In this document: positions 3,745 to 18,351 of the stretch, in pieces
Layout of the letters: every line of letters starts with the position of its first letter
How positions within the stretch are numbered: the stretch's first letter is position 1
NCBI GenBank assembly: GCA_014338185.1
Contig: QUBV01000018.1
Location: 1-44,398, forward strand
Direction of reading: 5' to 3'
Origin: Lysobacterales bacterium
Lineage (GTDB): Bacteria > Pseudomonadota > Gammaproteobacteria > Xanthomonadales > Rhodanobacteraceae
Length of the DNA stretch: 44,398 nucleotides
Made by a program: the position numbers and the translations under genes
Notes under the pieces: generated by a model
What the model saw: only the letters and a program-made list of their open reading frames with translations
Database searches by the model: none
Told to the model about the DNA's origin: nothing

Positions 3745-4785
3745 CTACATCGAGTCGATGCGCCACACGCCATTGGTGTCGCGCGCGAAATGGACCGGGT
3801 AGCCGCGCACGTCGCTGGTCAGGTCGCGCACCGCGATGACGTCCGCCGAGTCGAACCCGATGAGCCCGTCTGCCAGCGTCCCCAAATTGGTCGCGACCGT
3901 CGGCATCCGCGTACCCAGCGCCGTGAACAGTGGCGTCAGGCGAGTCTTGATGCCGTCCGCCAGCGCGTAGCCGGCCCCGTTCACGTCCTGGGCACTCAGC
4001 CGCGCGCGCAGCTGCGCGTAGGTGGAGCAGATCGCGGTGCGCTGCTCGGCCAGCTCCACCACCATCACGCGGCACTTCACCGTGACCGGCGCGTGGCCGG
4101 TGAAGGTGAGGTTGGCGGTTGCGGTGTATGCCCCCGGCGCCGGGTACGTGAAGATGGGCAGATCGCCTGCCGCGCTGGCCGTGTAGTCGGTGGTGCCGTT
4201 TCCGTCGAAGTCCACCGCGACCGACTGCAGCGCCAGCCCGCTTTTCACCTCCACGCGGAACTGCGCCGGCAGCGGCGAGAACCCCACTGGCGTCGACGTC
4301 GTAAACGTCGCGTCGGGATCGCCCGTCGGGACCGACACGGCAACGTTCGCCGATGCGGTCAGGCCGTCCATCGTCGTCGCCGTCGCCACTAGGCTGGTCG
4401 CCGACGAGTCGAGCGTCAGCTCCGGCGTCACGAACACGCCGTTGTGCACGTAAGCGCGTGTGCCCGCCACGGCGACGCCGGTGTTCACCGACCCCGTGAC
4501 CGTGCCGACCACCTGCATCTTGCCGGCGGGCAAAGCCGTTCCGGCCGTCGGCCAGGTAATTGCTATGGTGGGGGTGATGCCGAGCGTGGGCGCCGGCGTG
4601 GTAAGCGCGGGTGGCCCGATGCCGCCACCGGTTGTCGCCGGGTCAAAGCCATCGACGAACTTCGAATCGAAGTTCACGTCCTGAAGGCCGCAAACCTCTT
4701 GCGCTTGGGCAGACGCGGCCATAAGGCATGGCCCCATGAGCATCGCGGCAAGGCACCGCGATGAATAACTGTTTTTGAGTCGCAC
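3745..4785 (-). CDS. Secreted protein with PKD/Ig-like region
   Basis: A 346-aa protein with a signal peptide (cleavage after ASAQA, about residue 28). It starts at GTG, preceded by GGGAGGA at 7-nt spacing. Near the mature N-terminus, NFDSKFVDGFDP resembles the short xFxDGF(D/E) motif I associate with secreted Xanthomonadales proteins. Residues about 70-235 are beta-rich and Ser/Thr/Val-rich. They include VDFDGNGTTDYT and a YPAPGAYTATANLTF stretch typical of PKD-like domains, which usually bind carbohydrate or protein. The C-terminal 100 residues are more helical and end in a WRIDSM segment. It is first in a three-gene unit. No catalytic residues are apparent. Confidence 0.6.
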   Translation of the reverse strand: MRLKNSYSSRCLAAMLMGPCLMAASAQAQEVCGLQDVNFDSKFVDGFDPATTGGGIGPPALTTPAPTLGITPTIAITWPTAGTALPAGKMQVVGTVTGSVNTGVAVAGTRAYVHNGVFVTPELTLDSSATSLVATATTMDGLTASANVAVSVPTGDPDATFTTSTPVGFSPLPAQFRVEVKSGLALQSVAVDFDGNGTTDYTASAAGDLPIFTYPAPGAYTATANLTFTGHAPVTVKCRVMVVELAEQRTAICSTYAQLRARLSAQDVNGAGYALADGIKTRLTPLFTALGTRMPTVATNLGTLADGLIGFDSADVIAVRDLTSDVRGYPVHFARDTNGVWRIDSM

Positions 4786-4821
4786 GACGATCCTCCCTGT
4801 GCAAAGGGCGCCGATCGTCCG

Positions 4822-4853
4822 AAGGTCGGTCTATGGGAACCCCTTCCGACCTT
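4822..4853 (-). promoter_or_regulatory. Inverted repeat in the leader of the secreted-protein operon
   Basis: AAGGTCGG (4822-4829) and CCGACCTT (4846-4853) form perfect 8-bp arms around a 16-nt spacer that itself contains GGGAACCCC. It lies 37 bp upstream of the GTG start of the gene ending at 3745. It could be an operator or a leader hairpin. There is no U-tract on either strand, so it is not a standard terminator. Confidence 0.35.
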
Positions 4854-5206
4854 GGAGAGAGCGCCTGATTCGAAGCTAGCACAAGGAAAACGCCACTGTC
4901 TCGCACATGCTGAGACTCGATAGATCGCTAATGCACTACATCAAGCTGTCGCATTGGCTCAATCGTTGTTCCAGTCTCCGCGAGGACCGAACGTGCATTG
5001 CGTGCCGTATGCGAAGATGCTCACACGAGCATCGCGCGCTGCTGGAGGCACACTCATGCATGAATCTGGTACCGTTCTTCACGGCTCAGGTGCGTATAGG
5101 AGTAGAGACGGACCCGGCCGAGAAAGTGGCCAATTTTGGGCGTTTCGGCTGGTGGCCACCCGCAGCAGTGATGGCCGGAACCTCGCGTGGTTTGGGGATT
5201 TCAGGC
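4854..5206. other. Gene-poor spacer between the secreted-protein unit and the defence operon
   Basis: I see no convincing gene here: the short open frames lack ribosome-binding sites and protein-like composition. The stretch probably carries the promoter of the minus-strand secreted-protein unit. A 7-bp inverted repeat, GTGGCCA (5126-5132) and TGGCCAC (5153-5159), could be a relic of an insertion-sequence end, but this is not certain. Confidence 0.4.
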
Positions 5207-5236
5207 AAAAAAAGGGCCTGGAGACTATCCAGACCC
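5207..5236 (-). terminator. Rho-independent terminator of the defence operon
   Basis: On the minus strand a 9-bp stem (5236-5228 with 5222-5214, one mismatch, 5-nt loop) is followed at once by seven T residues (5213-5207). It lies 104 bp after the stop codon of the SNF2 helicase gene, the last gene of the six-gene operon, and is correctly oriented to end that transcript. Confidence 0.85.
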
Positions 5237-5340
5237 TTGTGATTGGTGGCGTGCAGTTTACTACCGAACAACTTGCTATTGGGGCCAATGGCCACTGCTG
5301 CGGAAGATAGTACGTGCGCAATGAATCTATGTGACATGAT

Positions 5341-7983
5341 TCACACGGTGCCCGATGGCGCAAAATTTGGGGCAGCACCATTTATCTCTGCGATCATCTC
5401 CTCGGCATCTGGATATTTTTCGGCAATGCGTGGAGAGATGACTATGCCGTGAAGGTGTGCGCGTAGGTCATCCCATCGATCATGCAGTACCTGCCAGTTT
5501 TTCTCATCATAAGTTCCCCGGAAAACAACTGGGCGAATTTCGATTCTAGGAAGGTCGCCATTCGCTTGCGTGTCAGCGATCACCTGATTCAGTTTTTCTT
5601 CCCACAAACTACCGATCCTATCGACTCGACCAATCTGCTGCTCAACCACACCAGGATTCCACTCTGGGTGCAGCAGCACAACCGTACGACATGCCTTGTG
5701 AAGATTAAGCCCTTCACGGCCCACCAACGATTGCGCTACCAATACCTTTGGGTGACCTTGCTTTCGATTGAAGGCCAATTGCAAGAAGCGCCGAGTCGCT
5801 GGTTTTGTCTCCCCAAACATTAATCGTGCGTATCCACCTTCAGGGCGGTTGTATTCCTCGTGTAGCCTGATTTTTAGTTCAGCCCAGAGACCGGATGCTT
5901 CCGCTTCATTCAACTGCCCATCACCATCTGCATCACCTTCGTCACGATCACTTGCCGCAGCCACTAAGTCAATAAAGGCCTGCGCGAAGTCGAATGGCGT
6001 GGCATTCTGGGCATTAGCCTGTACCAATTCGTGCATTGCTCGAGCCACTACTCCCAAGGCAGAATCTTCGTTGCCTTGAGCCTGTTCCGAATCCTCCTTA
6101 ACCGTTTTCTTAAAGACATCAAACAGCGATCGCACGCGTTTGTCTGGCTGCTTGACGGTGAAACCTTCCTCGATGTGGCTGATTAGATTTTTCCGAATAT
6201 TGCGGCGCTGATTCTCGAGTGCTTGGTATTGTTCAGCAAGGGCATCATCCAGAAGCGCGCGATCCAATTCTCCTTGCCTGCGCAACTGCCGATGAGCAGA
6301 TAAGATAGCCTCCCATTCTTCGTTCTCATGCACCTTGGATTGCGGCCATGGTAGATTGGCATCAACACACCGTAGCATCTCCCGAGCATTGAGCAGTTGC
6401 ACCAGTGCTCGTAATGGACGTGTGAACCGACCGAACACCAAAACTTTTTCCCCTTGCAGACAGATAGCTTCAATTTCTTTAACAGCCGCCAGAATTGCCG
6501 GGTGATCAAATAGCGGCGATCCAGCATTCTTCACGAATGGCTCGATCATGACCTTTTGCCACCACGCTGCGCGTAGCAGACGCTTGTCAGCTGTCGGTTC
6601 TATTTTGGAGCTATACTGTGCAGCGATCCAGGGCTCGTGATCGGCTTCTATTTGCTTCTGATCCTCGTTGTCATCTCGATGCACCTGATCAATCAGTGAA
6701 GCAATGCCGTGGCCATTACCTAAGGTTAGGCGCAGCCGCTTGGCAACCGTACGGTCGGATTGGCGAGTAACAAACGATAAGGCTTCTGCTGCACACACCG
6801 CCCGCTTCCATTCAGAAGACAGTTGGGCTGTATCGATCAGGATTTCCTGTTCGCGCCGATAGGCGTGATAACCCTCGCCAGATTCATTCTGAAACTTGAT
6901 GATCGCAGGATCTTTCCGTTTATCTCGTCGCAGCAGATAGTCACTTAGTGCCAGCTTGAACGCAGTTGCCGATTCTTTGAATTCCTTGCGCACCTCTTCG
7001 TCACTCGGGCATTGCCTTACCCTGGTTACAGATTTTGCATAATTCGAAATGGCTGTAGTTGCTGCTGTTCTCGATGCAACATCAACCCGGATGCGTCCCA
7101 GCATTTGCGTCCATTGTGTGGCATCGAGCTCAACTGGAGTTGCGGTCATTGCCAGGCGGCGGGCATCGACAGATTCCAGAACGACCTCAGTCAACAATCG
7201 ATTTAGCCCACTGTCTTGCCCCCTGCTTTTGTGTGCCTCATCAACAATGACCAGATCAAATACACCCAGCCCAAGTCCGACCGCACGTTCCAGCCATGGC
7301 CGTAATTGTGCGTTATGCCTATATTCGCCGGCAGTCAGAGCGCCAGGCCAAGGTGTCGTTTCAGCTAATTCCTCAATGAGTTTTCGAGCAGGATGATTTT
7401 CTGGGCTGGCGCATACTGCAACGACGATGCTCTCCGCAGCTTGTCGAACCCACGCGTCGTCGAGCATCTTGTTATTGCGATAATCGCGTGGCCAACGCCC
7501 GTTCGCTTGCTTTCGCCATCTAGCATATATTTCTGGGAGCAGAGCCCAGCGCCACGGAACGGTGTTCTCTCCAAGCCGCCAGTTTGTGAAAGCAAGAGAC
7601 ACAACTAGGGCCGATTCCATAAACCACGGAGCATTCTTATCCTTGGATTCCCATGCCTGCAAATATTGCCAGAGACTACGTAAGATCGGCGGCGCATTTA
7701 CCCCAGCGGTTTGTAATTCGTCGCTCCACTGATAGCCCAACCCAGGTGGCACCAGTATCGCAACCCGACCACCTGTGGCAATCACAGCCCGGGCGACCGC
7801 CGCAGCTATCCGGGTCTTACCCATGCCGACTTCGTCCGCGATTATCACGCCGTTATTCGGTAGTCGCTTGGCAAGTTCCTGGAGGCTCGCTGCCTGCCCG
7901 TCGTTAAGTTGAATTACACGACTATCTGCAAGAGAAAGAAGATGATTTGCGACTCTGTTCCAGCCTCCGAACCTTTGACTCAT
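5341..7983 (-). CDS. SNF2/DEAH-type helicase of a putative defence operon
   Basis: An 880-aa superfamily 2 helicase. Walker A is ADEVGMGKT (about 49-57), motif II is VDEAH (about 248-252) and motif III is AMTATP (about 279-284). The C-terminal RecA lobe has SLVGREGLNLH and QQIGRVDRIG (about 782-791), the SNF2/RapA-like motif VI. More than 400 residues separate motif III from the second lobe; this region is largely helical and charged, includes DRDEGDADGDGQLNEAEA (EF-hand-like acidic), and may hold a coupling or DNA-binding module. The start overlaps the stop of the PLD-like gene by 4 bp, so translation is likely coupled. Motifs make DNA translocation or remodelling likely; a defence role is inferred from its neighbours. 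Confidence 0.88.
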   Translation of the reverse strand: MSQRFGGWNRVANHLLSLADSRVIQLNDGQAASLQELAKRLPNNGVIIADEVGMGKTRIAAAVARAVIATGGRVAILVPPGLGYQWSDELQTAGVNAPPILRSLWQYLQAWESKDKNAPWFMESALVVSLAFTNWRLGENTVPWRWALLPEIYARWRKQANGRWPRDYRNNKMLDDAWVRQAAESIVVAVCASPENHPARKLIEELAETTPWPGALTAGEYRHNAQLRPWLERAVGLGLGVFDLVIVDEAHKSRGQDSGLNRLLTEVVLESVDARRLAMTATPVELDATQWTQMLGRIRVDVASRTAATTAISNYAKSVTRVRQCPSDEEVRKEFKESATAFKLALSDYLLRRDKRKDPAIIKFQNESGEGYHAYRREQEILIDTAQLSSEWKRAVCAAEALSFVTRQSDRTVAKRLRLTLGNGHGIASLIDQVHRDDNEDQKQIEADHEPWIAAQYSSKIEPTADKRLLRAAWWQKVMIEPFVKNAGSPLFDHPAILAAVKEIEAICLQGEKVLVFGRFTRPLRALVQLLNAREMLRCVDANLPWPQSKVHENEEWEAILSAHRQLRRQGELDRALLDDALAEQYQALENQRRNIRKNLISHIEEGFTVKQPDKRVRSLFDVFKKTVKEDSEQAQGNEDSALGVVARAMHELVQANAQNATPFDFAQAFIDLVAAASDRDEGDADGDGQLNEAEASGLWAELKIRLHEEYNRPEGGYARLMFGETKPATRRFLQLAFNRKQGHPKVLVAQSLVGREGLNLHKACRTVVLLHPEWNPGVVEQQIGRVDRIGSLWEEKLNQVIADTQANGDLPRIEIRPVVFRGTYDEKNWQVLHDRWDDLRAHLHGIVISPRIAEKYPDAEEMIAEINGAAPNFAPSGTV

Positions 7984-9977
7984 TTCGCATCCCCAATCGG
8001 GCTCAATTCATTGACCTTCCAACTCTCTTCAATCCTGAGTAACATCTCGTCATACAGCTTTCCGGACTCTGAGTCGCTGGTATCTGCAAACGATGGACGA
8101 AAAGACTGGTGGCGCAGTGGGCTTAGAGGGTTCAGTCTCAATGCGTCGCGAAAATACTTAACAGGGGCGCTGTCGCAGGCTTGTGCCAAAATTTGCTCAA
8201 GGCGATTGCACCAGAGCGCCCAGTCAATTTCATCGAGCTCTATTTGCTTAGCGGCAATGTTTTCGATCAGGTCCATCATCTGCCGTATCGGATAGCTGGC
8301 GATCGGTACAGAGTGCCCCTTCTTGTTGTTCTTGCCTTCGCTTTCATCGCCACCATCGCTTCCGTCGTCATCATCATCCGGTGGCATTGGAAAATCCGCG
8401 AGTTGCCACCATGCCTCGTCGATATCGATGGCTGGCAATTCGGTCGCAGCAATACGTCCGTATTGATCGACGACAGGTATCCGAGCTTCAAGATTCTTGT
8501 CTCCAGATTTCCAGCGGATGCGAACTTCACGGGGTCGCGCTTCGCACCACTGAAATCCACTTTTTGTCATTGAGCAGGTTAAACTGGCTGAATCAAGTAC
8601 ATCGAAATCGGTGACGCAGCTGTCGTTGGTACGTAACTCGCGAACATCGTCCGACTCGTGCCATACGAGCCAAGCAACGGGTGGCGCAACATAAATTGCA
8701 TCCCGTTGCTCCATGCCGGGGCCAGCATGAAGCGTGGAAACGTCACGAATCTCATCACCCCCTCGCTGAATGGGTAATAGGTTCGTCACCACCTGATGCT
8801 CAGGGGTACCCTTGCTTTTCTGCCAGCAGAGCGTGTTCGGGGCAAACACAACGCCTGCTTCGAGGTTGCCCGCAGCGGAGCTCATCTTGTTGGCGAAGCC
8901 TGGATGAGTCAGGTTCCCTGAACCTAGGTAAACCCAGGAGCTTGTGCATGCATTGGAGTCGTCTCGACGATTAGCGCTGAACAGGAATTTTGCATGCAAA
9001 TTACGTCGTGCTCCTTCACCGAACACAACGGTTGGGATAGCTGCAGGACGTACTGTGATGCCCCTGTCGCGCAATGATTGCAGCGATGTGGCTATGGATT
9101 GGCAGGCATTTGGATTGACATAGAGGTCTACCTCCGATTTCTTAGTCAGCAAGCCCTTGTCACGAAGAGTTTTGAGAATCGCAAGTGGCACTTCGGGTGG
9201 CTCTTGTTGATCATCTGATGTTTCATAAAATCCGGACCCAATGGCCAGGTAATTGCGTTTTACTTCGCAGTTTGCCTGGATTTGTGCAGGTAGCTGAGAC
9301 AGCAGGGACTTGTTCCGATTGTCGAAAACTCTCGGCTGTCCATTTGCCTTTTTCGAGCACACATTGATCCATTGCCTGACTTGCTGCTGCGCGAGCATCG
9401 TTTCGCTGACATGACCATGAGCGGAAGCATTGAGCAGCCGGACGTCGAAAAGCTGCTGAATCCATTCCAATAGTTTCCAGGCTGCGCTAATGTCGGCACA
9501 GTTTTTCTGGATATCCACATCAGGGTTGCTGAGTGATTCACTGGCGATATCGATCCGCCATATCAGGTCCAAACTCTCTTCCAGTGTCTGCCATGTCCAA
9601 TTGCCTGTTGACACCAGCAAGCGTAACCGCCACTGACTGTGGTTCTCCTGATGACGAAAACCTAGCAAAGCGACCTTGGCATGGAGGAGCCGAAACGGCT
9701 TTTTCGCGTAATCAATAATCGGCAAATGCGCAGCACCAGGGGCGTCCAGCAACGAAATGTGAGGGGTGCCAGGATCAAGCAACGTAGCTAGGGCAATACG
9801 GCCTTGGCGGACGCGTTGGGAGTGGGTAAGTCGAGTAAAGCGTTCAGTGGCGTCATTCAGAAATAACGCATCCGCCGAGTACCCGCACAGCCAACCAAAA
9901 TGTCCGATGTAGTCTTCTGGCGCGTCAAAATGCTGTGCCAGCGATGGTGGCCTAAAGGATTCGCGATTGATACTCAT
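7980..9977 (-). CDS. Phospholipase D-fold nuclease-like protein (Tdp1-like HKN motifs)
   Basis: A 665-aa protein with two PLD half-sites. The first is LLHAKVALLGF (His99, Lys101) followed by LVSTGNWT (Asn126). The second is NLHAKFLF (His328, Lys330) followed by YLGSGNLT (Asn355). The Asp of a classical HxKxxxxD motif is absent from both sites. The HxK...N pattern instead resembles tyrosyl-DNA phosphodiesterase 1. An acidic run (PPDDDDDGSDGGDESEG, about residues 560-577) sits before the C-terminal helical part. Overlaps of 4 bp with both neighbours tie it to the helicase and the 432-aa protein. Phosphodiesterase action on DNA ends or DNA-protein adducts is inferred from the motifs. Confidence 0.8.
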   Translation of the reverse strand: MSINRESFRPPSLAQHFDAPEDYIGHFGWLCGYSADALFLNDATERFTRLTHSQRVRQGRIALATLLDPGTPHISLLDAPGAAHLPIIDYAKKPFRLLHAKVALLGFRHQENHSQWRLRLLVSTGNWTWQTLEESLDLIWRIDIASESLSNPDVDIQKNCADISAAWKLLEWIQQLFDVRLLNASAHGHVSETMLAQQQVRQWINVCSKKANGQPRVFDNRNKSLLSQLPAQIQANCEVKRNYLAIGSGFYETSDDQQEPPEVPLAILKTLRDKGLLTKKSEVDLYVNPNACQSIATSLQSLRDRGITVRPAAIPTVVFGEGARRNLHAKFLFSANRRDDSNACTSSWVYLGSGNLTHPGFANKMSSAAGNLEAGVVFAPNTLCWQKSKGTPEHQVVTNLLPIQRGGDEIRDVSTLHAGPGMEQRDAIYVAPPVAWLVWHESDDVRELRTNDSCVTDFDVLDSASLTCSMTKSGFQWCEARPREVRIRWKSGDKNLEARIPVVDQYGRIAATELPAIDIDEAWWQLADFPMPPDDDDDGSDGGDESEGKNNKKGHSVPIASYPIRQMMDLIENIAAKQIELDEIDWALWCNRLEQILAQACDSAPVKYFRDALRLNPLSPLRHQSFRPSFADTSDSESGKLYDEMLLRIEESWKVNELSPIGDAK

Positions 9978-11272
9978 GCTTCACCGCCGCCCGCGTGCGG
10001 ATTTAGCCATTCATCCAGTTCACCGTGCATGTCGAGATTCAACAGATAGAGATTTCGTACACGGTAGGAGATGCCTTCCGGCAATGAAATGCGCCCCCCG
10101 TTCGGCGTTTCTGGCTCTTCGTCGTTGGCACTGACCTCCTTTATCGAGCCACGAAATGCCGCCCCTGGCTTGATTTCATCCCCTATCAGACGCAGCACGT
10201 GCCCGTCTCGATAGACCAATTTTCGCAAGATGCTGACCGGGTCATCTCCGCCGCACTCCTGACAAAATGTCGTGGCATCCTCATCGACGCGGGCGAGATC
10301 CAAGTATTGTGTTGCTACGAGTTTAAGCTTTTCAAGCGACTGTGCCAGCGAATCAGGAACTTGATGTTTCAAGGATAGGAATTGGCCGGCACCCTGGTTT
10401 CCGATATGGACCTCTGCTGCATCGAGCGTAGCAATTGCGGCTTCACGAGCTTGAAAAAACAAGGCCCCTGCCTGAAGGTCGTGCCAATGATCTTCTGAAA
10501 TTTCTTGCGGACGCTGCGCCCCCGCTAGCTTGTCTGGCCCATTTGTTCGGAGTGACTCGACCCACGCCAGTGCGTTACCTCGCCGTTTCTTATCCTCACG
10601 GGATTCGGTCCCTCCTTGAATTAGCCTTTCGCGAAGTAATTGAATTGCGCCTTGCGAGAGAGAGTCAAGAGGAGACAGTGCCTGAATAAGTCGGAGGGAA
10701 TTCTCCAGCTTGTCACTCTCGCCCAGTACCCACTTGGTTAGATGGTCAATGACTGATGTTTTATGTGGGCTGTAACTTCTTGTGGCTTGCTCAATGAAAT
10801 TACTTCCTTCTTCCGTGCAACAAAATGCATTAAAGCGTGCGCTGTCGGACTCGACAAAGCCAAGTGCGTGCAAGGCCTGGACGGTCGCCATTCGCATAGG
10901 CTGTGTGACGTAGAAATTTCGCTGACGGGCCCGCCGGAAACTGAAATCATCTTTGCCTTGCAACTTGGTATTTCCGCGCAAGCGACTGTCACTACTCCAG
11001 TCATTGCTTTTGAAGGCCAGCCAACAGGCCAGCGCTTCAATTGCGTTCGCCACTTCAATATTCTGCACTCTCACACCTTGGCTGCGCGCAGCTTCCGCTA
11101 CAGCCACACCAAGCGCCGCAAGTAGCAGCTGCTTGCCGTACCAGACGCCACCTATCCCGGGAACAGCAAGATCATTAAAGCGGCGTATTGAAGCGCCAAG
11201 TCCAAGGGTTCGAGTTCGTCGCGTATTCGGCAGAAATTCGGGACCGAGAAGGCCCCACACACCTTCGATCAA
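9974..11272 (-). CDS. Unrecognised 432-aa protein of the defence operon
   Basis: I do not recognise this family with confidence. The N-terminal 60 residues contain LGLGASIRRFNDLAVPGIGG and a hydrophobic helix, loosely like the start of uncharacterised defence-associated proteins that precede PLD/helicase pairs. The middle is helical and charged. Residues 337-340 form one CxxC pair (FCQECGG), too few ligands for a zinc site within one chain unless Cys150-Cys151 contribute. There is no transmembrane segment, Walker motif or obvious nuclease motif. It starts 14 bp after the WYL gene, and its end overlaps the PLD-like gene by 4 bp (ATGA). It may be a recognition or adaptor subunit; this is inference from position only. 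Confidence 0.7.
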   Translation of the reverse strand: MIEGVWGLLGPEFLPNTRRTRTLGLGASIRRFNDLAVPGIGGVWYGKQLLLAALGVAVAEAARSQGVRVQNIEVANAIEALACWLAFKSNDWSSDSRLRGNTKLQGKDDFSFRRARQRNFYVTQPMRMATVQALHALGFVESDSARFNAFCCTEEGSNFIEQATRSYSPHKTSVIDHLTKWVLGESDKLENSLRLIQALSPLDSLSQGAIQLLRERLIQGGTESREDKKRRGNALAWVESLRTNGPDKLAGAQRPQEISEDHWHDLQAGALFFQAREAAIATLDAAEVHIGNQGAGQFLSLKHQVPDSLAQSLEKLKLVATQYLDLARVDEDATTFCQECGGDDPVSILRKLVYRDGHVLRLIGDEIKPGAAFRGSIKEVSANDEEPETPNGGRISLPEGISYRVRNLYLLNLDMHGELDEWLNPHAGGGEA

Positions 11273-11286
11273 TGAGATCTCCTTCG

Positions 11287-12261
11287 TTACGGCTTCACCG
11301 AGACAATGGAACGCCGCCCAACAACTTCAATTGCATCCCCGAACCGCCGCAGCCACCATTCGAGCATGGCGCTATCCATTACTGACGCTGTGATTTCGAG
11401 CCGCCCGTCATTGAGTTCGACCACTTGTTGGTCACTCGACAGTGGAGATTCCAGCAAATGAAAGCCGGCATTACGCTCGATACGGAACGCCAATTGCACT
11501 TTTTCGCCCTCGCCGAAGCCGAAACGTCCATCGTCGTCATACTTCTTGAGGTCAAATTCTTTGGGCCTATCGAACGTCAGCGTCGACATCTCGGCTGACA
11601 AGATTCGGTGCAGCGCCAAGCTGCGTTCGTTGTCATAGCCACGGTATCGGCAAACGAGATAGAGGCGTGGCCCCTGCTGGGCTAAGCCCAGAGGCATAAC
11701 TTCCACCTTGCCTCGCTTCCCTCCCGAATTCCGGTAGTCTAGATGAAGCCAGCGGTTGCTGTACAACGACTCACTGACAATTTCGAATACGCCGGAAACA
11801 ATCTTTGGCGGCAACAGCGGCTGGCTGGTAGCCACGACACGTACCTTGCCGGGCCACTCACGCTCCAGACGCGCACTGCTATTCGGACCTAGATTTCGCC
11901 GGGCTTGGCTGAAAAAACCTTCCATCGATTTCATCAAACGCGTGGGCAGAAGATTTCTCAGATGTTCCTCGGCCAACTGGAGCAGCAACGACTCCTGTGG
12001 CGTGAGATTGGGCACCGCCAAGGATTTGGCCTGCTCCAGCCAACGATAGCCATAGGGTTTGCTACGGTCGTCACGCTCGATCTCGAAATGCTCGCTGAGC
12101 ATTTCCAGTTGTCGCTGGATGGTGCGCAGATCCCTATCGATACCGGCATCCTTGAGTTGCCGATGCAGTTCACTGGCGGTCACCTTGCGGCCGCGCGGAA
12201 TGCGGCGCAACAACTCGACGGCAAGCAATACGGTTTCGAGTGTGTCGGAGCGCTTTGCCAT
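11287..12261 (-). CDS. WYL-domain transcriptional regulator
   Basis: A 324-aa protein with an N-terminal winged helix (about residues 10-75; ELHRQLKDAGIDRDLRTIQR looks like the recognition region). A WYL domain lies at about 155-225 (WLHLDYRNSGGKRGKVEVMP, then RLYLVCRYRGYDNERSLALH), and a C-terminal WCX-like region at 250-320 ends in WWLRRFGDAIEVVG. This matches defence-associated WYL repressors such as BrxR/CapW in size and order. WYL domains are thought to sense nucleic-acid ligands. It is encoded inside the operon, one base after the DUF2779 gene, which suggests autoregulation. The palindromes upstream of the AAA+ gene are plausible binding sites. Confidence 0.88.
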   Translation of the reverse strand: MAKRSDTLETVLLAVELLRRIPRGRKVTASELHRQLKDAGIDRDLRTIQRQLEMLSEHFEIERDDRSKPYGYRWLEQAKSLAVPNLTPQESLLLQLAEEHLRNLLPTRLMKSMEGFFSQARRNLGPNSSARLEREWPGKVRVVATSQPLLPPKIVSGVFEIVSESLYSNRWLHLDYRNSGGKRGKVEVMPLGLAQQGPRLYLVCRYRGYDNERSLALHRILSAEMSTLTFDRPKEFDLKKYDDDGRFGFGEGEKVQLAFRIERNAGFHLLESPLSSDQQVVELNDGRLEITASVMDSAMLEWWLRRFGDAIEVVGRRSIVSVKP

Positions 12262-12262
12262 C

Positions 12263-13762
12263 TCAGACCTTCAATGCCGACCCTGTAAAGACCGACCATA
12301 AGCGAACCATGGCATAGGTGTCGAGCGCGCAGTAGGCCAGCAATTGCTGCTCGATCTCGGTCCTGCGCATCTTGCTGGTTTGCGGTGACAACGCTTCCAG
12401 GAAGGCATCCATGGCCATCCCGCCATCCTGAACACCATCGAGATCTCCGTAATCCAAGTCCGGGCAGAGTGCTGGCAGCACGGCCTTGATGCTCCAACTG
12501 CCTTGCTGGCTGGGGTGGTAGTAATGGTCTCGAGCCACAGGTAAGAGATCCACCACGCGCTCGTTCAATGCCAGCAGTGACTTGGCCATACGAGGAAAGC
12601 GCTCAGACAACTCGCGGATGCGGGCCGTTTCAAAACCGGCGTTGTAGACGAATATTGGACCTCGCTCGCCGCACGCGGCAATCAAGGCTTCGGTAAATGC
12701 CTTGGACGGATCGCTGCCTGTGATATCGAGAAATGCCTGCTGATCGAGCTTGCCTGTACGTGAGAGGCGGTGTACGCTGAACTGGAAAGGAATCTGCTGG
12801 TAAGGCCGTGTTCCCTTCCAGATCGGTACGGCAAATTGGATGGTTTCAAAGTCCAGGAAATAAGCGGGCAGCTTGTAAGCGGCAAGTGCTTGCGCGGACG
12901 CCCGCTGGTCGAAATAGGGTTTGCCGGAGAGGGTGGCCGCCTTGACGCGTTGCTGCTTGTCGTTAAGCAGTGCATCAGGCAAGTCGCGAAGTTCTGTCAG
13001 GCCATGCGCCTCAATGTGCGCCTGAAGCCCGTTGCTCAGGCGACCAGGTAGCCACTTGATCGGCTGCTCTGCCTGCGGTTCCTGACTTTGGCAATAGGCA
13101 AGAAATCCGCACTCATAGGGATTGCCGCAGTGCTTGCCCGTAGCAACCCTGGGCTCGCGTTTCTTTGCGACGATCTGTTGCGCCTCGGCAATCCAGCCGC
13201 GCACCTCTTCTCCCCGGCCGAAAACTTCATCCGTCAGATCGTTTTCGAGCAATAGCCCGTTGTAATCCTCATTGCCTGGATAAACCCAATCGCTGTCGAT
13301 ATGTGCGAGCGCGATTTTGGTGAGTGGCACACCGGAGGAGCGGGCGACGAAGGATTGCACAGCCGCGTCGTCGCGATGGTAGTCCTTGACTGAGGTGGAG
13401 GATTTCACCTCGACCATACGCCAGGCCAGCTTGCCACATCTTCTTATCGGCAACATCACGTCTGCAAGAGCTAACGCTCCTTCGGCGCGAAAGCCCGCTT
13501 CGAAGATCGGTTGAGCTACCTGTAGAAGCTCCAGGGTACGAGCGAATGCAGCATCAAAGCCGTCTGCTTGCGGATCGATAAGAACGCCCTTGCCCTTGGG
13601 GTCATACAATCGTCGGGCAATGTCACCGACTTGATGCCCCACGGCAAAACTAGCCTGGGTGGCGGCCGAATCCTCACGCAACTTGGGGCGATGCACCTCA
13701 AGCCACAGTCGCTTGGGGCACTGCCGGTAAGCCAGTAGCTTGGACTTCGAAAGCGTGCGCAT
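12263..13762 (-). CDS. Cas4-like nuclease fused to DUF2779 exonuclease domain
   Basis: A 499-aa protein with two nuclease-like halves. Residues 1-230 resemble Cas4/PD-(D/E)xK exonucleases: Cys15 (CPKRLW), Asp101, VEVKSS (Glu118, Lys120), Gln136, and a CGNPYECGFLAYC cluster (Cys212, Cys218, Cys224). Together with Cys15 this gives four candidate Fe-S ligands. Residues 300-490 are the DUF2779 region with a DnaQ-like pattern: FLDFET (Asp304, Glu306), YNAGFE, VVDLL (Asp405) and YCALDTYAM (Asp481). The gene lies 41 bp after the AAA+ gene and one base before the WYL gene. All expected catalytic residues look intact. DNA or RNA end trimming is likely; the substrate is unknown. Confidence 0.85.
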   Translation of the reverse strand: MRTLSKSKLLAYRQCPKRLWLEVHRPKLREDSAATQASFAVGHQVGDIARRLYDPKGKGVLIDPQADGFDAAFARTLELLQVAQPIFEAGFRAEGALALADVMLPIRRCGKLAWRMVEVKSSTSVKDYHRDDAAVQSFVARSSGVPLTKIALAHIDSDWVYPGNEDYNGLLLENDLTDEVFGRGEEVRGWIAEAQQIVAKKREPRVATGKHCGNPYECGFLAYCQSQEPQAEQPIKWLPGRLSNGLQAHIEAHGLTELRDLPDALLNDKQQRVKAATLSGKPYFDQRASAQALAAYKLPAYFLDFETIQFAVPIWKGTRPYQQIPFQFSVHRLSRTGKLDQQAFLDITGSDPSKAFTEALIAACGERGPIFVYNAGFETARIRELSERFPRMAKSLLALNERVVDLLPVARDHYYHPSQQGSWSIKAVLPALCPDLDYGDLDGVQDGGMAMDAFLEALSPQTSKMRRTEIEQQLLAYCALDTYAMVRLWSVFTGSALKV

Positions 13763-13803
13763 TGATCCTCCCTTTTTGTCAAATTATCCCATGCGGTTGA
13801 TGG

Positions 13804-15894
13804 TCAGATAAACCCAATCGATGCCTTTCCACCTTCTTTCACGGCACACTCCGCCTCCAGAGCCGAAACCAGTGTGGCCGGTGATTGAATGGGGCGGAAT
13901 CGGTGTTGACGCAGCACGGCGGCGAAATCGCCAGGGGTCAGCCGCTGCAGACGCATCGTCCTTGTCAGCAGATCAGGCTGTGGAGCAGGGAGGTTAAGTT
14001 GTATACAGTAACGACGCACCAGTTCCCAGGCCTGTTCTGGTCGCAGAAAGTCGAACTTCACCTTGAGGTCGAAGCGACGCAGCGCAGCCTGATCCAGACC
14101 TGTCATCAAGTTTGTCGAGGCGATGAATACGCCGGAGAACGATTCCATCTGGGTGAGCATCTCATTGACCATGCTCACTTCCCAACCACGCTGAGCCCCG
14201 CGACGATCCTGAAGAAAGCTGTCGACTTCGTCGATCAGCAGCAGCGCCCCATCCTGCGCTGCTTGTCGAAATGCCCGAGCGATGTTCTGCTCGTTTTCGC
14301 CGACATAGGGGGACATCAAGTCAGAGGCACGTTTCACCAACAAAGGGACATCCAGTTGTTGAGCCAGCCACCGCCCATAGGCGGTTTTGCCCGTACCGGG
14401 AGGGCCATACAAACAAAGTCGGCCAGCGCGCGCCGCAATCAGTCCATCTGCAACACTGCTTAGGTCGGCATCGGCATGTATGAACCCCGGATCGTAGATT
14501 TCCGGCAGTCGATTCGGATCGTTCTGAACGATGGGACGGTGTCCCTGTGCTTCCAAGGTATTACTGATCAACCGTTCAAACGCCGTGGCGCAACCCTTTT
14601 GGCCAAGATCCTCGCGTATCGAGCGAACGACTGAGCTTGCCTTGGCCACCACAGCGGGTGCCAGAGATTCGGCCTCGGCAATCCGCGAAATAATGCAAGC
14701 ATCGATCAGGTCGCCGCAATTCTCCTGCAGAATCCGCTCACGCTGCTTTTTTGGCGGCACGGGCAGTTCGAACACCATGTCGAAGCGGCGAATGAAGGCC
14801 GGATCGAGGCCATCAATGGAGTTGGACAACCAAAGCGTCGGCACCGGATTTTCTTCGAGCATCCGGTTGATCCACGCCTTGCGGACCTGAGCCGTACTCT
14901 TGCGGCCAAAGAAACTATCACCATCGTTGAAGACATCCTCGACCTCGTCGAAGGCGATGAGTGCCTGGCGTTGTGCGAAGAAACTCTGGGCAGCGCGAAA
15001 CGCACGCAGACGGCGTTCGCCATTCACTGGATCGCCATCGGCGTCCTCACTTGCCACCTCGAACAGTTCACATCCCAGTTCATCAGCTAGGGCTCGTGCC
15101 AGCTGACTCTTGCCTGTACCCGGCGCTCCATGTAGGAAGATGTTGACCCCACGCCGCCCGGTCGTGGCCGCGTGCCGTAGATACGGACGCAGAATTTGCA
15201 GGGAAGCATTGATGTGGCTGTAATCGGCCAGCTTGAGTTGTGCTGGGCCTGCGGCAGATACGGTGCCGCGCAGCAAACTGATCGGATCGGCTTCCGAAGA
15301 TGCCATCAGATCGGCAAACCCATCGGAGAGCAGATCCAACTTGCCGCTCAGCGTGCTGGTACCGCTACGGTCGACCGAAACCAAGCCGGAGCGTGCGAGG
15401 ATGCCCTGTGCACTTAGTGATGCACGAATTTCTGGCTCGGGCAGACCAAGAATCGCCGAGAGGGCATGAAAGGCCTTGACTGATGAAATCTGGCCAAGCC
15501 AGTCGGCAGTGTCGTCCAAGAGTCGTTCATTGTGGATTGACACGGCGAACTCCAGGATTCTGCAATCGGTTGTACTGAGACCGACCAGATCGGACAGTTG
15601 TCCAACGTTGTTGCGCAGGCAAGCGGGCAGAGGGGCTTTTTCCCATTGTTTTTCAGCCTTCTGATGCAGCATCCGCAGTTCTGATTGAACGGCCTTGAGG
15701 TCAAAATCATTGGGGGACGGGTCGATCCAATGCCCCAGGCCAATCACCTCAGCCAACGTATCGTTGTTGAAGCCGTGAGAACGCACGAAGTCACGCTGCC
15801 CACCCAGCGGCACCAGAATGCGCAGCAACCAGAGAAGAATGATGGGATCGGGACCAACCGCATTTGCGGTGCAACGCGACCGACGTCTTGCCAT
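13804..15894 (-). CDS. Double AAA+ ATPase, first gene of the defence operon
   Basis: A 696-aa protein with two AAA+ modules. In module 1, Walker A is HGAPGTGKS (255-263), Walker B is ALIAFDEVED (311-320), and AFIRRFD supplies the arginine finger region. In module 2, Walker A is YGPPGTGKT (496-504), Walker B is LLLIDEVDS (551-559), and AALRRFD (603-609) is the corresponding arginine region. It resembles FtsH/Cdc48-type AAA domains without a protease domain. The N-terminal 230 residues are helical and unrecognised. The start is supported by AAGGAG at 8-nt spacing. The start codon lies in an 11-bp inverted repeat, so expression may be controlled there. Hexameric remodelling activity is inferred from the family. 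Confidence 0.88.
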   Translation of the reverse strand: MARRRSRCTANAVGPDPIILLWLLRILVPLGGQRDFVRSHGFNNDTLAEVIGLGHWIDPSPNDFDLKAVQSELRMLHQKAEKQWEKAPLPACLRNNVGQLSDLVGLSTTDCRILEFAVSIHNERLLDDTADWLGQISSVKAFHALSAILGLPEPEIRASLSAQGILARSGLVSVDRSGTSTLSGKLDLLSDGFADLMASSEADPISLLRGTVSAAGPAQLKLADYSHINASLQILRPYLRHAATTGRRGVNIFLHGAPGTGKSQLARALADELGCELFEVASEDADGDPVNGERRLRAFRAAQSFFAQRQALIAFDEVEDVFNDGDSFFGRKSTAQVRKAWINRMLEENPVPTLWLSNSIDGLDPAFIRRFDMVFELPVPPKKQRERILQENCGDLIDACIISRIAEAESLAPAVVAKASSVVRSIREDLGQKGCATAFERLISNTLEAQGHRPIVQNDPNRLPEIYDPGFIHADADLSSVADGLIAARAGRLCLYGPPGTGKTAYGRWLAQQLDVPLLVKRASDLMSPYVGENEQNIARAFRQAAQDGALLLIDEVDSFLQDRRGAQRGWEVSMVNEMLTQMESFSGVFIASTNLMTGLDQAALRRFDLKVKFDFLRPEQAWELVRRYCIQLNLPAPQPDLLTRTMRLQRLTPGDFAAVLRQHRFRPIQSPATLVSALEAECAVKEGGKASIGFI

Positions 15895-15925
15895 GATGGT
15901 TTCTCCTTGTGATGGAAACCATCAT
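15893..15925 (-). promoter_or_regulatory. Mutually exclusive leader hairpins over the start codon of the AAA+ gene
   Basis: On the minus strand, ATGATGGTTTC (15925-15915) pairs perfectly with GAAACCATCAT (15903-15893) across an 11-nt loop. This stem contains the first two bases of the ATG, and the AAGGAG ribosome-binding site (15908-15903) sits in its loop edge. A second hairpin, TGATGG-TTT-CCATCA (15924-15910), uses the same left arm and would leave the ribosome-binding site free. Both cannot form at once. As DNA the same sequence could be an operator. The pairing is read directly; the regulatory role is inferred. Confidence 0.6.
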
Positions 15926-15943
15926 CCGGGTTGCTGCGACGTA

Positions 15944-15954
15944 ATGTGTCACAT
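15944..15954. promoter_or_regulatory. Palindrome ATGTG-T-CACAT, candidate operator
   Basis: Perfect 5-bp arms around one central base lie in the 150-bp region between the AAA+ gene and the divergent DUF3489/recombinase chimera. Position and symmetry suit a dimeric winged-helix protein such as the operon's own WYL regulator. No strong -35/-10 pair was identified for either direction. Confidence 0.4.
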
Positions 15955-15968
15955 CGATAGGTGCCGAG

Positions 15969-15985
15969 AAGCCAGAAAATGGCTT
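15969..15985. repeat. Inverted repeat AAGCCA-N5-TGGCTT
   Basis: Perfect 6-bp arms around gaaaa, followed by a further GGCTTC (15986-15991) that can pair with GAAGCC at 15968-15973. It is the third inverted repeat in this 150-bp divergent intergenic region and may be a second regulator site. Confidence 0.4.
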
Positions 15986-16044
15986 GGCTTCCTGCTTGAA
16001 GAACGCATTCATCGTGCTCCCAATCACCCTTGAAGGAGCACACG

Positions 16045-16482
16045 ATGAGCAATTCCCCAACCCCGACCCAGCAGACCATCCTGACCCATGCCGTCGGCCA
16101 CACCGAAGGCCGGATCGAATGGTTCCCCGACAACATCAAGGACGGTGCTCGCCAGAAGGTGCTGGCGGGCCTCACGCAGCAGATCGTGGCGGCGCTGACC
16201 GCCCCGCACATCATGCAGGCGGTCTGGGATCGGATGCAGGTCACCCGGCCCGACCTCACCGAACCGCAGGTCGTGCTGCCGATGCGCAACCTCGCGGGCC
16301 TGTGGCGGGAGCTGTTCCCGGCGGAACATTGCCGTCTGGCAAAACTCCTGATCGAGCGTGTGGTAATTGCCGATGGCGGGTTGGAAATCACCTGGCGCGA
16401 TCAGGGCTGGCAGGAACTGGCCGGGGAATTGCTGCCCGGCAGCATCGGCGCGGAATTGCAGGAAATGGAGGAAACCGTATGA
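16045..16482 (+). pseudogene. DUF3489 / serine-recombinase C-terminus chimera
   Basis: A 145-aa frame starting at ATG 16045, with AAGGAG 6 nt upstream. Residues 1 to about 43 (TPTQQTILTHAVGHTEGRIE, WFPDNIKDGARQKVL) match the start of DUF3489 proteins. From about residue 44 the sequence becomes the C-terminal tail of a large serine recombinase (LWRELFPAEHCRLAKLLIERV, LEITWRDQGWQELAGELLPG). Genes of these two families often lie next to each other in mobile elements, so an internal deletion near 16175 probably fused them in frame. The recombinase catalytic serine domain is absent, so recombination activity is not expected. The fused product may still be translated. Confidence 0.65.
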
Positions 16483-16599
16483 AGCCGAAACTGCAGACCT
16501 TGGGCGCAGCCATCGCCCGCGAACGGCGCGATGGTGGGCAAGTGAAGCTGTCGACCTTCATCCCGCTGAAGATCCGCAAGCGCGGCGCGATCATCCAAC
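16479..16599 (+). pseudogene. Truncated recombinase-associated gene (N-terminus only)
   Basis: ATG at 16479 overlaps the TGA of the chimera by 4 bp. The reading MKPKLQTLGAAIARERRDGG, then QVKLSTFIPLKIRKRG, resembles the start of small proteins encoded just after serine recombinases in mobile elements. At about 16587 it runs into copy B of the direct repeat and the protein-like sequence ends. The frame stays open to 16835, but the rest has repeat-type, Arg/Pro/Ala-rich composition. I treat it as broken by the repeat. Confidence 0.55.
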
Positions 16600-16716
16600 G
16601 CGCTCCCCCTGCGGGCCGCTTCGGCCCACCGCCCGCCGCCGCTGATGGGCGTCGGCAAGAGCGGCGCGCTCCTGCGCGCCCAAGCCCGCACCGCGAGTCG
16701 GGCTGGATCGTCGGTG
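16587..16716. repeat. Imperfect direct repeat, copy B (right end of island)
   Basis: Same orientation as copy A at 7-135, with scattered substitutions and one extra C after the tcgg at 16624. It cuts off the small gene that starts at 16479. Recombination between the copies would remove about 16.6 kb carrying all accessory genes of the window. Confidence 0.75.
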
Positions 16717-16782
16717 CCAGCGCGACCGCCAACCCACATCTGTGGTGGGCTCGTTGCGCACTCGGCGGGTTGCTTGCATCCG

Positions 16783-16810
16783 CAACTAACGGGGTCCAAC
16801 TAACGGGGTC
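16783..16810. repeat. Perfect 14-bp tandem repeat at the island/core junction
   Basis: CAACTAACGGGGTC occurs twice head to tail (16783-16796 and 16797-16810), followed by aggttcactt. GGGGTCAGGTTCACTT-like strings are often found beside REP-associated transposase sequences, but no such gene is seen here. It lies just before the first core gene and may mark the insertion point. Confidence 0.65.
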
Positions 16811-16920
16811 AGGTTCACTTCCTGATCGCCCATGACCCACAAGCCGTCGATTCAGCGGCTGGCGCGCCGCCTACCGCTGGCTTGGCCTTGCCAGGCGCAC
16901 CCGATGCGGTCGATCGGTGC

Positions 16921-18351
16921 TCAGTCCCAACCCTTGTCGTCGGCGAATGCGCCGGGCCTGGAGCCGAAGTCACCCTGTGCCTGTGCGGCCAGGTAGGCGA
17001 CCACCGCGTAGGCGGCCACGTTCTGGCGCAGCTGCTCGGGGTCGATCTTGTCGAAGGTGTCGTTGGCGGTGTGGTGCCAGTCGAAATAGCGCGTCGCGTC
17101 CTGGTGCAGCGACAGGCCGGCCATGCCCACCGCATGCACGGCCGACAGGTCCGAGCCGCCGCTGCCGGAGCGCTTGGCGTCGTAGGCGATGCCGAGCGGT
17201 TCGAGCACCTTGGCGATCTGCGCGACCGCGTCGCGCGCCTCGGGCTTGACGCTCGCGGTGGCGAGATAGATGCGGTCAGCGCCCAGGTCCGACTCGCTGC
17301 CTAGCACGGCCTTGGCGATGTCCTTGGCATGCGCGCTGGCGTAGGCGCGCGCGCCGTACAGGCCCGATTCCTCGTTGGCGAACGCGATCACGCGGATGCT
17401 GCGGGCGGGGCGTTGTGGCAGGTTGGCGATGAGCTTGGCCGCGCCGACCGCGATGCCGATGCCCGCGGCGTCGTCGATCGCGCCGGTGCCCAGGTCCCAG
17501 GAGTCGAGGTGGCCGCCCATGATGAAGTACTCGGCCGGCCTCTTGCTGCCGGTGAACTCGCCGATCACGTTGGCGCCGGTGTACTCACCCTCGAAGCCGC
17601 AGTCGAGCGTGAAGGCGATGCGCAGCACCTGGCTGCCGGCGAGGATGCGCTCGACCTGGTCGGCGTCGGGCGCGGCCAGGGCCGCGGCCGGGATCGGCGT
17701 GACGCCTTCGGCAAAGCGCGTCACGCCCGTGTGCGGCAGGCGGTTGGCGTCGGTGCCCGCGCTGCGCAACAGGAAGCCGAGCGCGCCCTTGCTCGATGCC
17801 AGCGACGGGCCGATCGAGCGTACGCTCGAGCCGATGCCGTAGTCCTGGCCGCTCTGTTTGGCGTGCATGCGCGCACCGACGTAGACGATCTTGCCCCGGA
17901 CCTTGGCCGGATCGGCGTTCTTGAGCGCGTCGAGCGTGTCGAAGCCGACCACCTCGCCGCTGAGGCCGCCGGCCGGCGTGCCGGGCGAATGGCCCAGTGC
18001 GGTGAGGCTCAGCGGCTGCGGGAACGGTGCCAGCACCTGGCCGTGCTCGCCGCGCCGCACCCACTTGGGGTAGGTCACCGGCTCGCTCCACACCTTGTCG
18101 AAGCCGAGCGCCTTGAAGCGCGCGATGGTCCACTCGCGCGCCTTGAGGTCGTTGTCGCTGCCGGCCAGGCGCGGCCCGATCTCGGTGGTGAGGTCGCGCG
18201 TGAATGCGAGGGCGACCTCGTCCTTGAGCGCGGCCTCGCGCAATTGCGCGGCGGTGGCCAGCGCCGCATCCGGGATCACGGTGGGCTTGCCCGCGGCGAT
18301 GGCGAGCGGCGAGGCGAGCAGGAGCAGGGCGAGCGGCAGCGAGCGGCGCAT
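16921..18351 (-). CDS. Secreted M28-family zinc aminopeptidase
   Basis: A 476-aa protein beginning MRRSLPLALLLLASPLAIAA, a signal peptide; the chosen ATG has GAGGAAC 6-8 nt upstream, which favours it over a start 21 codons earlier. A PA-type insert (GKIVYVGARM) precedes the catalytic domain. Zinc and catalytic residues appear in GGHLDSWDLGTGAIDDAAG (His, Asp), NEESGLYG (Glu pair), ESDLGAD (Asp) and HHTANDT (His). The order and length fit M28 peptidases that release N-terminal residues from peptides in the periplasm or outside the cell. It is the first intact core gene to the right of the island, transcribed toward it. Confidence 0.92.
   Translation of the reverse strand: MRRSLPLALLLLASPLAIAAGKPTVIPDAALATAAQLREAALKDEVALAFTRDLTTEIGPRLAGSDNDLKAREWTIARFKALGFDKVWSEPVTYPKWVRRGEHGQVLAPFPQPLSLTALGHSPGTPAGGLSGEVVGFDTLDALKNADPAKVRGKIVYVGARMHAKQSGQDYGIGSSVRSIGPSLASSKGALGFLLRSAGTDANRLPHTGVTRFAEGVTPIPAAALAAPDADQVERILAGSQVLRIAFTLDCGFEGEYTGANVIGEFTGSKRPAEYFIMGGHLDSWDLGTGAIDDAAGIGIAVGAAKLIANLPQRPARSIRVIAFANEESGLYGARAYASAHAKDIAKAVLGSESDLGADRIYLATASVKPEARDAVAQIAKVLEPLGIAYDAKRSGSGGSDLSAVHAVGMAGLSLHQDATRYFDWHHTANDTFDKIDPEQLRQNVAAYAVVAYLAAQAQGDFGSRPGAFADDKGWD

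Follow-up and report, generated by a model that had tools for sequence, protein, structure and literature searches.

Do six tightly spaced genes on one strand of a bacterial contig form a single machine, or were they assembled from parts that also occur separately? This question is raised by contig QUBV01000018.1 of a Lysobacterales bacterium, which was analyzed over its full 44,398 nucleotides (the window; coordinates without a locus name refer to it). All six genes lie on the minus strand. In reading order, they encode a tandem AAA+ ATPase (13804..15894, 696 aa), a Cas4-like PD-(D/E)XK nuclease fused to DUF2779 (12263..13762, 499 aa), a WYL/WCX transcriptional regulator (11287..12261, 324 aa), a familyless protein that we call A (9974..11272, 432 aa, TTG start), a PLD/Tdp1-like phosphodiesterase (7980..9977, 665 aa), and an SNF2-family translocase/helicase (5341..7983, 880 aa). 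The operon is a mosaic of a core cassette, A-PLD-SNF2, and a separable accessory module, AAA-DUF2779-WYL. Because the cassette is found in several phyla and the module is swappable and occurs elsewhere beside a different cassette of the same design, the operon probably represents a modular anti-virus system and not a fixed six-part machine. The explanation that we favor, with moderate confidence, is a horizontally acquired anti-invader locus composed of these two modules.

The core cassette and the separable module

The genes A, PLD, and SNF2 are maintained as a block across phyla beyond chance. A scan of 84,980 genomes with a pattern derived from the PLD alignment produced 153 matches and 125 confirmed relatives, and the best 80 of these 125 were examined; they are distributed among Pseudomonadota, Planctomycetota, Acidobacteriota, Nitrospirota, Thermodesulfobacteriota, and Myxococcota. 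The gene for A was found in 77 of these 80 loci, SNF2 in 75, and both in 72. The addition of seven plasmids (the only matches to protein A in 72,556 plasmid records), two genomes of the window's family found via A, and the window itself gives a set of 90 loci, in which A occurs in 87, SNF2 in 85, and the complete set in 82. The order A-PLD-SNF2 on one strand is preserved in all 82 complete sets, and the eight incomplete sets are all at contig ends. Five of the plasmids have usable gene tables, and in these A is followed by PLD and SNF2 genes, as identified by blastp. For the other two plasmid loci, which lack a gene table at this place, the genes were read by script. In Paracoccus pBEN (L005:8974-11988), A and PLD are fused in one open reading frame (ORF) of 1,004 aa, a single case that hints at direct contact between the two proteins. 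In Novosphingobium pSA1 (L008), the PLD gene is split into parts of 148 and 511 aa that are approximately 2.3 kb apart. Our literature searches recognized no published description of this cassette.

The accessory genes do not share this constancy. In the 73 loci for which 4 kb or more of sequence is available upstream of A, an AAA homologue (at least 150 bits) was present in 20, in some of them broken, partial, or on the opposite strand; an AddBA-like pair was present in 10 and DUF2779 in six. At the thresholds applied (60 bits for WYL), AAA, WYL, DUF2779, and AddBA-like genes were all undetected in 40 of the 73 loci. The AAA, DUF2779, and WYL genes accompany the core together in five loci, one of which is a near-copy of the window. 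The AAA-DUF2779-WYL trio occurs without the core in Diaphorobacter, downstream of the core in Acidovorax, and, with 66-69% protein identity, upstream of a complete PDC-M27ABC set in Rhodoferax. Furthermore, the AAA family was found in 31 of 299 genomes sampled across the phylum (limit 1e-40), versus two for protein A (the window's own genome and one other; limit 1e-10).

The boundary between the two parts is visible as a seam of DNA homology at the WYL/A junction: Ferrovum matches the window over 5355-11295, and Acidovorax matches 11338-15953 as a single block, with its core DNA resembling the window's core in patches only. In a quick tree built from 71 PLD rows, some of them on long branches, 10 changes of the AAA label are required, and well-supported branches force at least four of these; Ferrovum, which lacks AAA, pairs with the window with 91% support. 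At another locus (L023), the core is intact, and the adjoining AAA and WYL genes are fragmented and on the opposite strand.

The tight one-strand spacing, the AAA-DUF2779-WYL order conserved in Acidovorax, Diaphorobacter, and Rhodoferax, and the five loci that combine AAA, DUF2779, and WYL with the core, the near-copy among them, might be taken to indicate one obligate machine, in which all six proteins are required and the AAA protein and the DUF2779 nuclease are integral subunits. We regard such a machine as very unlikely, given the 40 cores with no detected accessory gene, the absence of any accessory gene in Ferrovum, the closest relative on the tree, the existence of the module without the core, and the commoner AAA family. 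Together with the changes of the AAA label, the same observations led us to judge any fixed six-gene system unlikely. The original prediction of a single six-gene system is thus not borne out: among the loci examined, the exact window order with A-PLD-SNF2 recurs solely in L011, which is 6,731 bp long and ends inside the PLD gene. Co-occurrence in a constant order holds for the core trio in several phyla, not for the six genes together. By contrast, the proposal that the operon ends in a helicase/PLD trio of the Azaca type, joined to a separable ATPase/nuclease/regulator module, is supported. The L011 contig (L011:1-6731) belongs to a metagenome bin labelled Planctomycetota and is 99.985% identical to window 8754-15484; this near-identity reflects either mis-binning or very recent transfer.

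The six proteins and their proposed roles

The predicted domains are supported by Pfam for the AAA, DUF2779, WYL, and SNF2 proteins; the PLD protein stays below the cut-offs, but its HxK motifs are invariant. The AAA protein matches Pfam AAA (9.4e-45) over two stretches, and the Walker A lysines and Walker B Asp/Glu residues of both domains are conserved in 19 of 19 homologues. The DUF2779 protein matches its Pfam family at 3.4e-43 and a Cas4 model at 2.5e-6, and residues D101, E118, K120, C15, C212, C224, D304, E306, Y477, and D481 are conserved in 12-13 of 13 homologues. DUF2779 has been classed among presumed 3'-5' exonucleases, and the PD-(D/E)XK-like DUF83 is reported with DUF2779 (PMC3985635). 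We predict that this protein combines a Cas4-like PD-(D/E)XK domain bearing conserved cysteines with a DEDD-like domain that would act as a 3'-5' exonuclease. The regulator matches Pfam WYL (3.8e-11) and WCX (4e-7).

In the PLD protein, both HxK motifs (H99/K101 and H328/K330), N126, and N355 do not vary in any of the 82 full-length homologues, with Pfam matches under the cut-offs (PLDc_2, 4e-4; Tyr-DNA_phospho, 5e-3). The SNF2 protein matches ResIII (1.4e-9), Helicase_C (1.8e-7), and SNF2-rel_dom (2.2e-6) in Pfam; of its Walker and motif VI residues, K56, D248, E249, H251, R786, and R789 are conserved in all 82 homologues and A250 in 81. Alone of the six searched in a phage collection, it gave one partial match there. 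Its relative of solved structure by sequence is RapA; sequence comparison yielded no usable structural relative for A, PLD, or DUF2779, and antibody matches were judged spurious. Protein A reached no family cut-off, the best matches being DUF7439 in Pfam (E 0.039) and Csf3 in the NCBIfam search (E 0.093). The best Pfam E-value among 59 of its homologues was 0.025, with EarA-like matched weakly by five, and A matched no PADLOC model at E 0.1 and gave no pattern match in viral contigs.

From these features, we infer the following order of events. The WYL protein would act as a repressor: bound to a 7-5-7 palindrome ahead of the AAA gene, it would keep the unit off until an infection or damage signal releases it. 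Protein A might be a DNA- or target-recognition subunit or an adaptor that aims PLD-SNF2; SNF2 would track along DNA and PLD would cut it, the two forming a DNA-tracking nuclease. The ends produced by the core could then be resected by the Cas4-like/DEDD nuclease or by an AddBA-like pair, and the tandem AAA+ ATPase may remodel or license the complex. Because no methyltransferase was recognized among the six proteins, self is perhaps spared by repression or by the sensing of DNA structure rather than by modification.

The lack of a recognized methyltransferase would also suit an abortive effector directed at the cell itself, in which the WYL-controlled core attacks host DNA upon infection and the cell dies before phage release. 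A precedent is found in CBASS, which the WYL protein CapW represses, and abortive infection is described as the mode of action of many anti-phage systems (PMC9122588). However, the 40 cores without an accessory match, WYL at 60 bits included, suggest that the core is often maintained without a close WYL protein, and the partner modules resemble end-resection machines, which would fit the degradation of an invader. Therefore, we consider self-directed killing unlikely and retain the modular anti-invader locus as the preferred explanation.

The candidate operator and the surrounding island

The palindrome in question, TGCGACGTAATGTGTCACA, lies at 15935..15953, 41 bp upstream of the AAA start, with two mismatches to the consensus TGCGACA-N5-TGTCGCA. 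A relaxed form of the pattern has a single match in the whole 3.17-Mb genome, which is this site. Sites with at most two mismatches are present in 14 of 18 loci with a close WYL protein (at least 350 bits); the 25 sites, compared with 2.0 expected under a Markov model, were counted anywhere within the locus, not just upstream of AAA. When the four loci of the first motif sighting are excluded, 10 of 14 still have a site. Among 22 AAA loci new to the scan, four have a site with at most one mismatch and 18 have none. In L170 and L172 the site directly precedes AAA; in L119 it separates the annotated WYL and AAA genes, and in L173 it falls within the 5' end of the longest-start ORF. Three of these AAA homologues (L170, L172, and L173) have the palindrome near their start, yet the fetched contig has no core or WYL match. 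A perfect 9-bp inverted repeat adjoining the AAA start was dropped as a candidate, since three relatives lack it among the repeats found at that position.

The WYL proteins BrxR and CapW are reported to bind comparable palindromes, and BrxR sites have a 5-bp spacer (PMC9122601, PMC9122588). The arrangement here is similar, a WYL-family regulator with a palindrome ahead of the operon and the spacer length of BrxR sites; it differs from BrxR in the putative status of the operator, in the operon concerned, and in its arms of 7 bp, compared with 10-11 bp. The palindrome at 15935-15953 is a probable operator of the WYL protein, and it offers a candidate for the sequence-based finding of WYL-controlled immune genes.

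The ORF coordinates and the letters themselves agree with the layout initially described, a six-gene minus-strand unit with gaps of 41, 1, and 14 bp followed by two 4-bp ATGA overlaps and with a single terminator. The latter is an intrinsic-terminator-like stem-loop with a T tract on the minus strand (5212..5238), found once by a scan in which shuffles of the same 301-bp stretch averaged 0.2. No sigma-70-like promoter was found upstream of the operon, and there were no Rfam matches in 4000-17500. The GC content is 52.2-53.5% in the core and 56-57.5% in the AAA-DUF2779-WYL module; a 540-bp strip just downstream of the operon has 55.6%, and the flanks farther out have 64-71%. The right flank is conserved in 16 of 16 searched genomes of the genus, the window's own included, and the left flank matches in six of the 16, three of these over just 24-49 bp. 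The island-side sequences are not alike between the genus genomes compared at the flanks; comparison at both flanks revealed no clean empty site, and the two island edges share no direct repeats longer than 9 bp. A 149-bp stretch that includes the terminator (5104-5251) is 82.6% identical to L077:6391-6539, upstream of the Acidovorax core, and is matched in five of 61 genus genomes (own included), with mostly partial-length matches in the four others. This stretch is perhaps the end of an element. At the other side, the operon is adjoined by an ORF (16045-16482) that has no Pfam match and that presumably resembles the tail of a serine recombinase.

Evidence for a defense role comes from the neighborhood of the core. 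From the 296 flanking ORFs at 69 loci, a random sample of 110 was compared with PADLOC models at E 1e-15; 28 models were matched. The matches listed (25 of 28), each model with one protein, carry 13 protein names, including PglZ (in nine models), KwaB, MkoA, MkoC, LmuA, Avs1a, LeoA, SoFic, and RTasMBL. A control sample of 110 of 167 ORFs from 18 regions matched seven models, mad3 with four proteins and six others with one each. The counts of matched proteins are not sharply different, so the contrast, in our judgment, is one of kind, that is, system-specific genes versus broad families. In Haematobacter (L004), the core and its AddBA-like pair adjoin BREX-1 pglZ/brxL; in Sphaerotilus (L119), BREX-2 pglZ/brxD is adjoined by an AAA homologue that is accompanied by WYL and Sir2 genes. 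The earlier suggestion of a multi-component anti-invader system is therefore supported by the kinds of neighbors, the carriage on plasmids, and the patchy distribution, except that the six genes do not form one system.

At first glance, the Tdp1-like PLD, SNF2, and RecB-like nuclease domains, which are common to repair enzymes, could also indicate an operon for DNA repair or for the maintenance of a plasmid or island; one AAA homologue adjoins plasmid transfer genes, and a Y-family polymerase gene lies approximately 7 kb away. This non-immune role appears distinctly unlikely to us. The occurrence of protein A is patchy (three of 233 genomes of the window's family, own included), the sampled neighbors match BREX, Kiwa, Mokosh, Lamassu, Avs, and DRT models and the sampled controls none of these, and the layout and the type of accessory pair are common to Azaca.

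Several observations nevertheless weigh against the anti-invader locus that we favor. The module is uncommon beside the core (DUF2779 in six and AAA in 20 of 73 loci), and the joining of the two may thus be mere co-location. Control regions chosen at random also match PADLOC, with up to 10 of 110 proteins, though in other families. Palindrome sites occur in 20 of 79 loci without a close WYL protein (27 sites versus 7.6 expected), and the window's own site, two positions off the consensus, falls short of significance when the window is considered by itself (0.44 expected). Protein A has no recognizable domain, and the role assigned to it is consequently a guess. Finally, the kinship of the PLD protein to ZacB of Azaca and to PDC-M27B is weak and partial.

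Relation to Azaca, PDC-M27, and other named systems

The operon is not a named system in the libraries searched (PADLOC-DB 2023 and NCBIfam), and the cassette is unnamed: none of the six proteins gave a whole-protein match to a named system or reached an NCBIfam cut-off. This agrees with the earlier statement that the full set does not match DISARM, BREX, Zorya, or Druantia. The nearest named defense relative of the AAA protein is IetA/IteA, which it resembles over its AAA region 487-634 (131 bits to IetA in PADLOC). Its 120.6 bits to IteA_antiphage are far below the NCBIfam cut-off of 510; unlike IetA/IteA, the window protein carries two AAA domains preceded by a long N-terminal region, and no protease domain was recognized in the other five proteins. 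With DISARM, the operon shares an SNF2-like helicase, but the score to NCBIfam DrmD is 75.5 bits against a cut-off of 610, and no DUF1998/DrmB or methyltransferase was found for the six proteins among the matches listed (at most 25 for the AAA and SNF2 proteins). Likewise, among the matches listed, PglZ of BREX is unmatched by the six proteins, and neither the DUF499 ATPase nor the N6-methyltransferase of Hma/DUF499-centred systems appears (for the AAA protein, the best 25 of 42 matches). A CRISPR-linked Cas4 was also rejected; the region 1-22000 has no array-like direct repeats (minimum 22 nt, spacing of at most 100).

Azaca, which Millman et al. reportedly named in 2022, consists of DUF6361 (ZacA), PLD, and SNF2 genes, and thus has three genes in the same X-PLD-SNF2 order as the core. 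Its first gene shows no kinship to A by profile comparison, and its PLD and SNF2 proteins are just remotely similar to those of the core. No ZacA/DUF6361 match was found among the six proteins or, at E 1e-10, in the window's genome, and the hhalign probability between the A and ZacA profiles is 0.1%. ZacB is the single PADLOC model matched by the PLD protein (3e-8), a partial match of 31 bits, versus 555 and 391 bits for genuine ZacB proteins; the SNF2 protein scores 43 bits (8e-12) to ZacC, versus 886 bits for a genuine member. Azaca membership was rejected on account of the missing ZacA and the unrelated A. A divergent Azaca member, for which the shared order and the weak ZacB and ZacC matches might speak, is in our view highly improbable, since ZacA is missing from the unit, A is unrelated by profile, and the ZacB score is low. 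A ZacA-like fragment adjoining the Acidovorax core can also be cited for it: this ORF of 133 aa, on the opposite strand between core and module (L077:14775-15176), matches the ZacA profile (1e-14, 53 bits) and is apparently left over from an Azaca locus in that island.

PDC-M27, a phage-defense candidate of PADLOC, has the same X-PLD-SNF2 layout and, in Rhodoferax, stands behind the same AAA-DUF2779-WYL module. The SNF2 protein matches a range of defense helicases in PADLOC, with PDC-M27C as the best-scoring model (66 bits, versus 1287.5 bits for the Rhodoferax member). However, the PLD protein does not match PDC-M27B at E 0.1 (the Rhodoferax member scores 805 bits), and PDC-M27A is unrelated to A by profile (hhalign probability 0.0); membership was rejected for these two reasons. 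Across the three cassettes, comparison of the profiles of A, ZacA, and PDC-M27A, the latter two built from seven and two sequences, revealed no kinship, the PLD links are weak, and the SNF2 links are clear. In the 299-genome samples, ZacB was found in three genomes and PDC-M27B in one, with E-value limits that differ from that for A.

A second module, the AddBA-like pair, occurs with both the core and Azaca. All 10 core loci with an AddBA-like pair are alphaproteobacterial, with the pair before the core in nine and after it in one (L005). Such a pair is upstream of ZacA in five of nine Azaca loci examined: an annotated UvrD helicase, preceded by a nuclease or unnamed gene, in L113, L115, L120, and L121, and an AddA-like ORF at the equivalent place in L116, with none upstream in L096, L097, L098, and L114. 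The core-side and Azaca-side UvrD parts align over 986 columns, and the nuclease parts align weakly (E 5e-6). Because modules have been interchanged between the cassettes, we argue that all of them serve the same type of function. Azaca is listed with its mechanism unknown in a 2026 review (PMC12926258). We tentatively suggest, at somewhat less than even odds, that Azaca, PDC-M27, and this cassette may be three branches of one modular immunity class, with a PLD-SNF2 engine, non-homologous swappable first subunits, and interchangeable end-processing modules, either AddBA-like or WYL-controlled AAA-Cas4/DEDD. The present locus adds a widely spread unnamed cassette, with 125 confirmed PLD relatives in 84,980 genomes, to the poorly understood PLD-SNF2 systems. 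Moreover, the natural swaps make the question of subunit roles testable: if the first subunits set the targets and the end-processing modules interchange, hybrids between these systems should show it.

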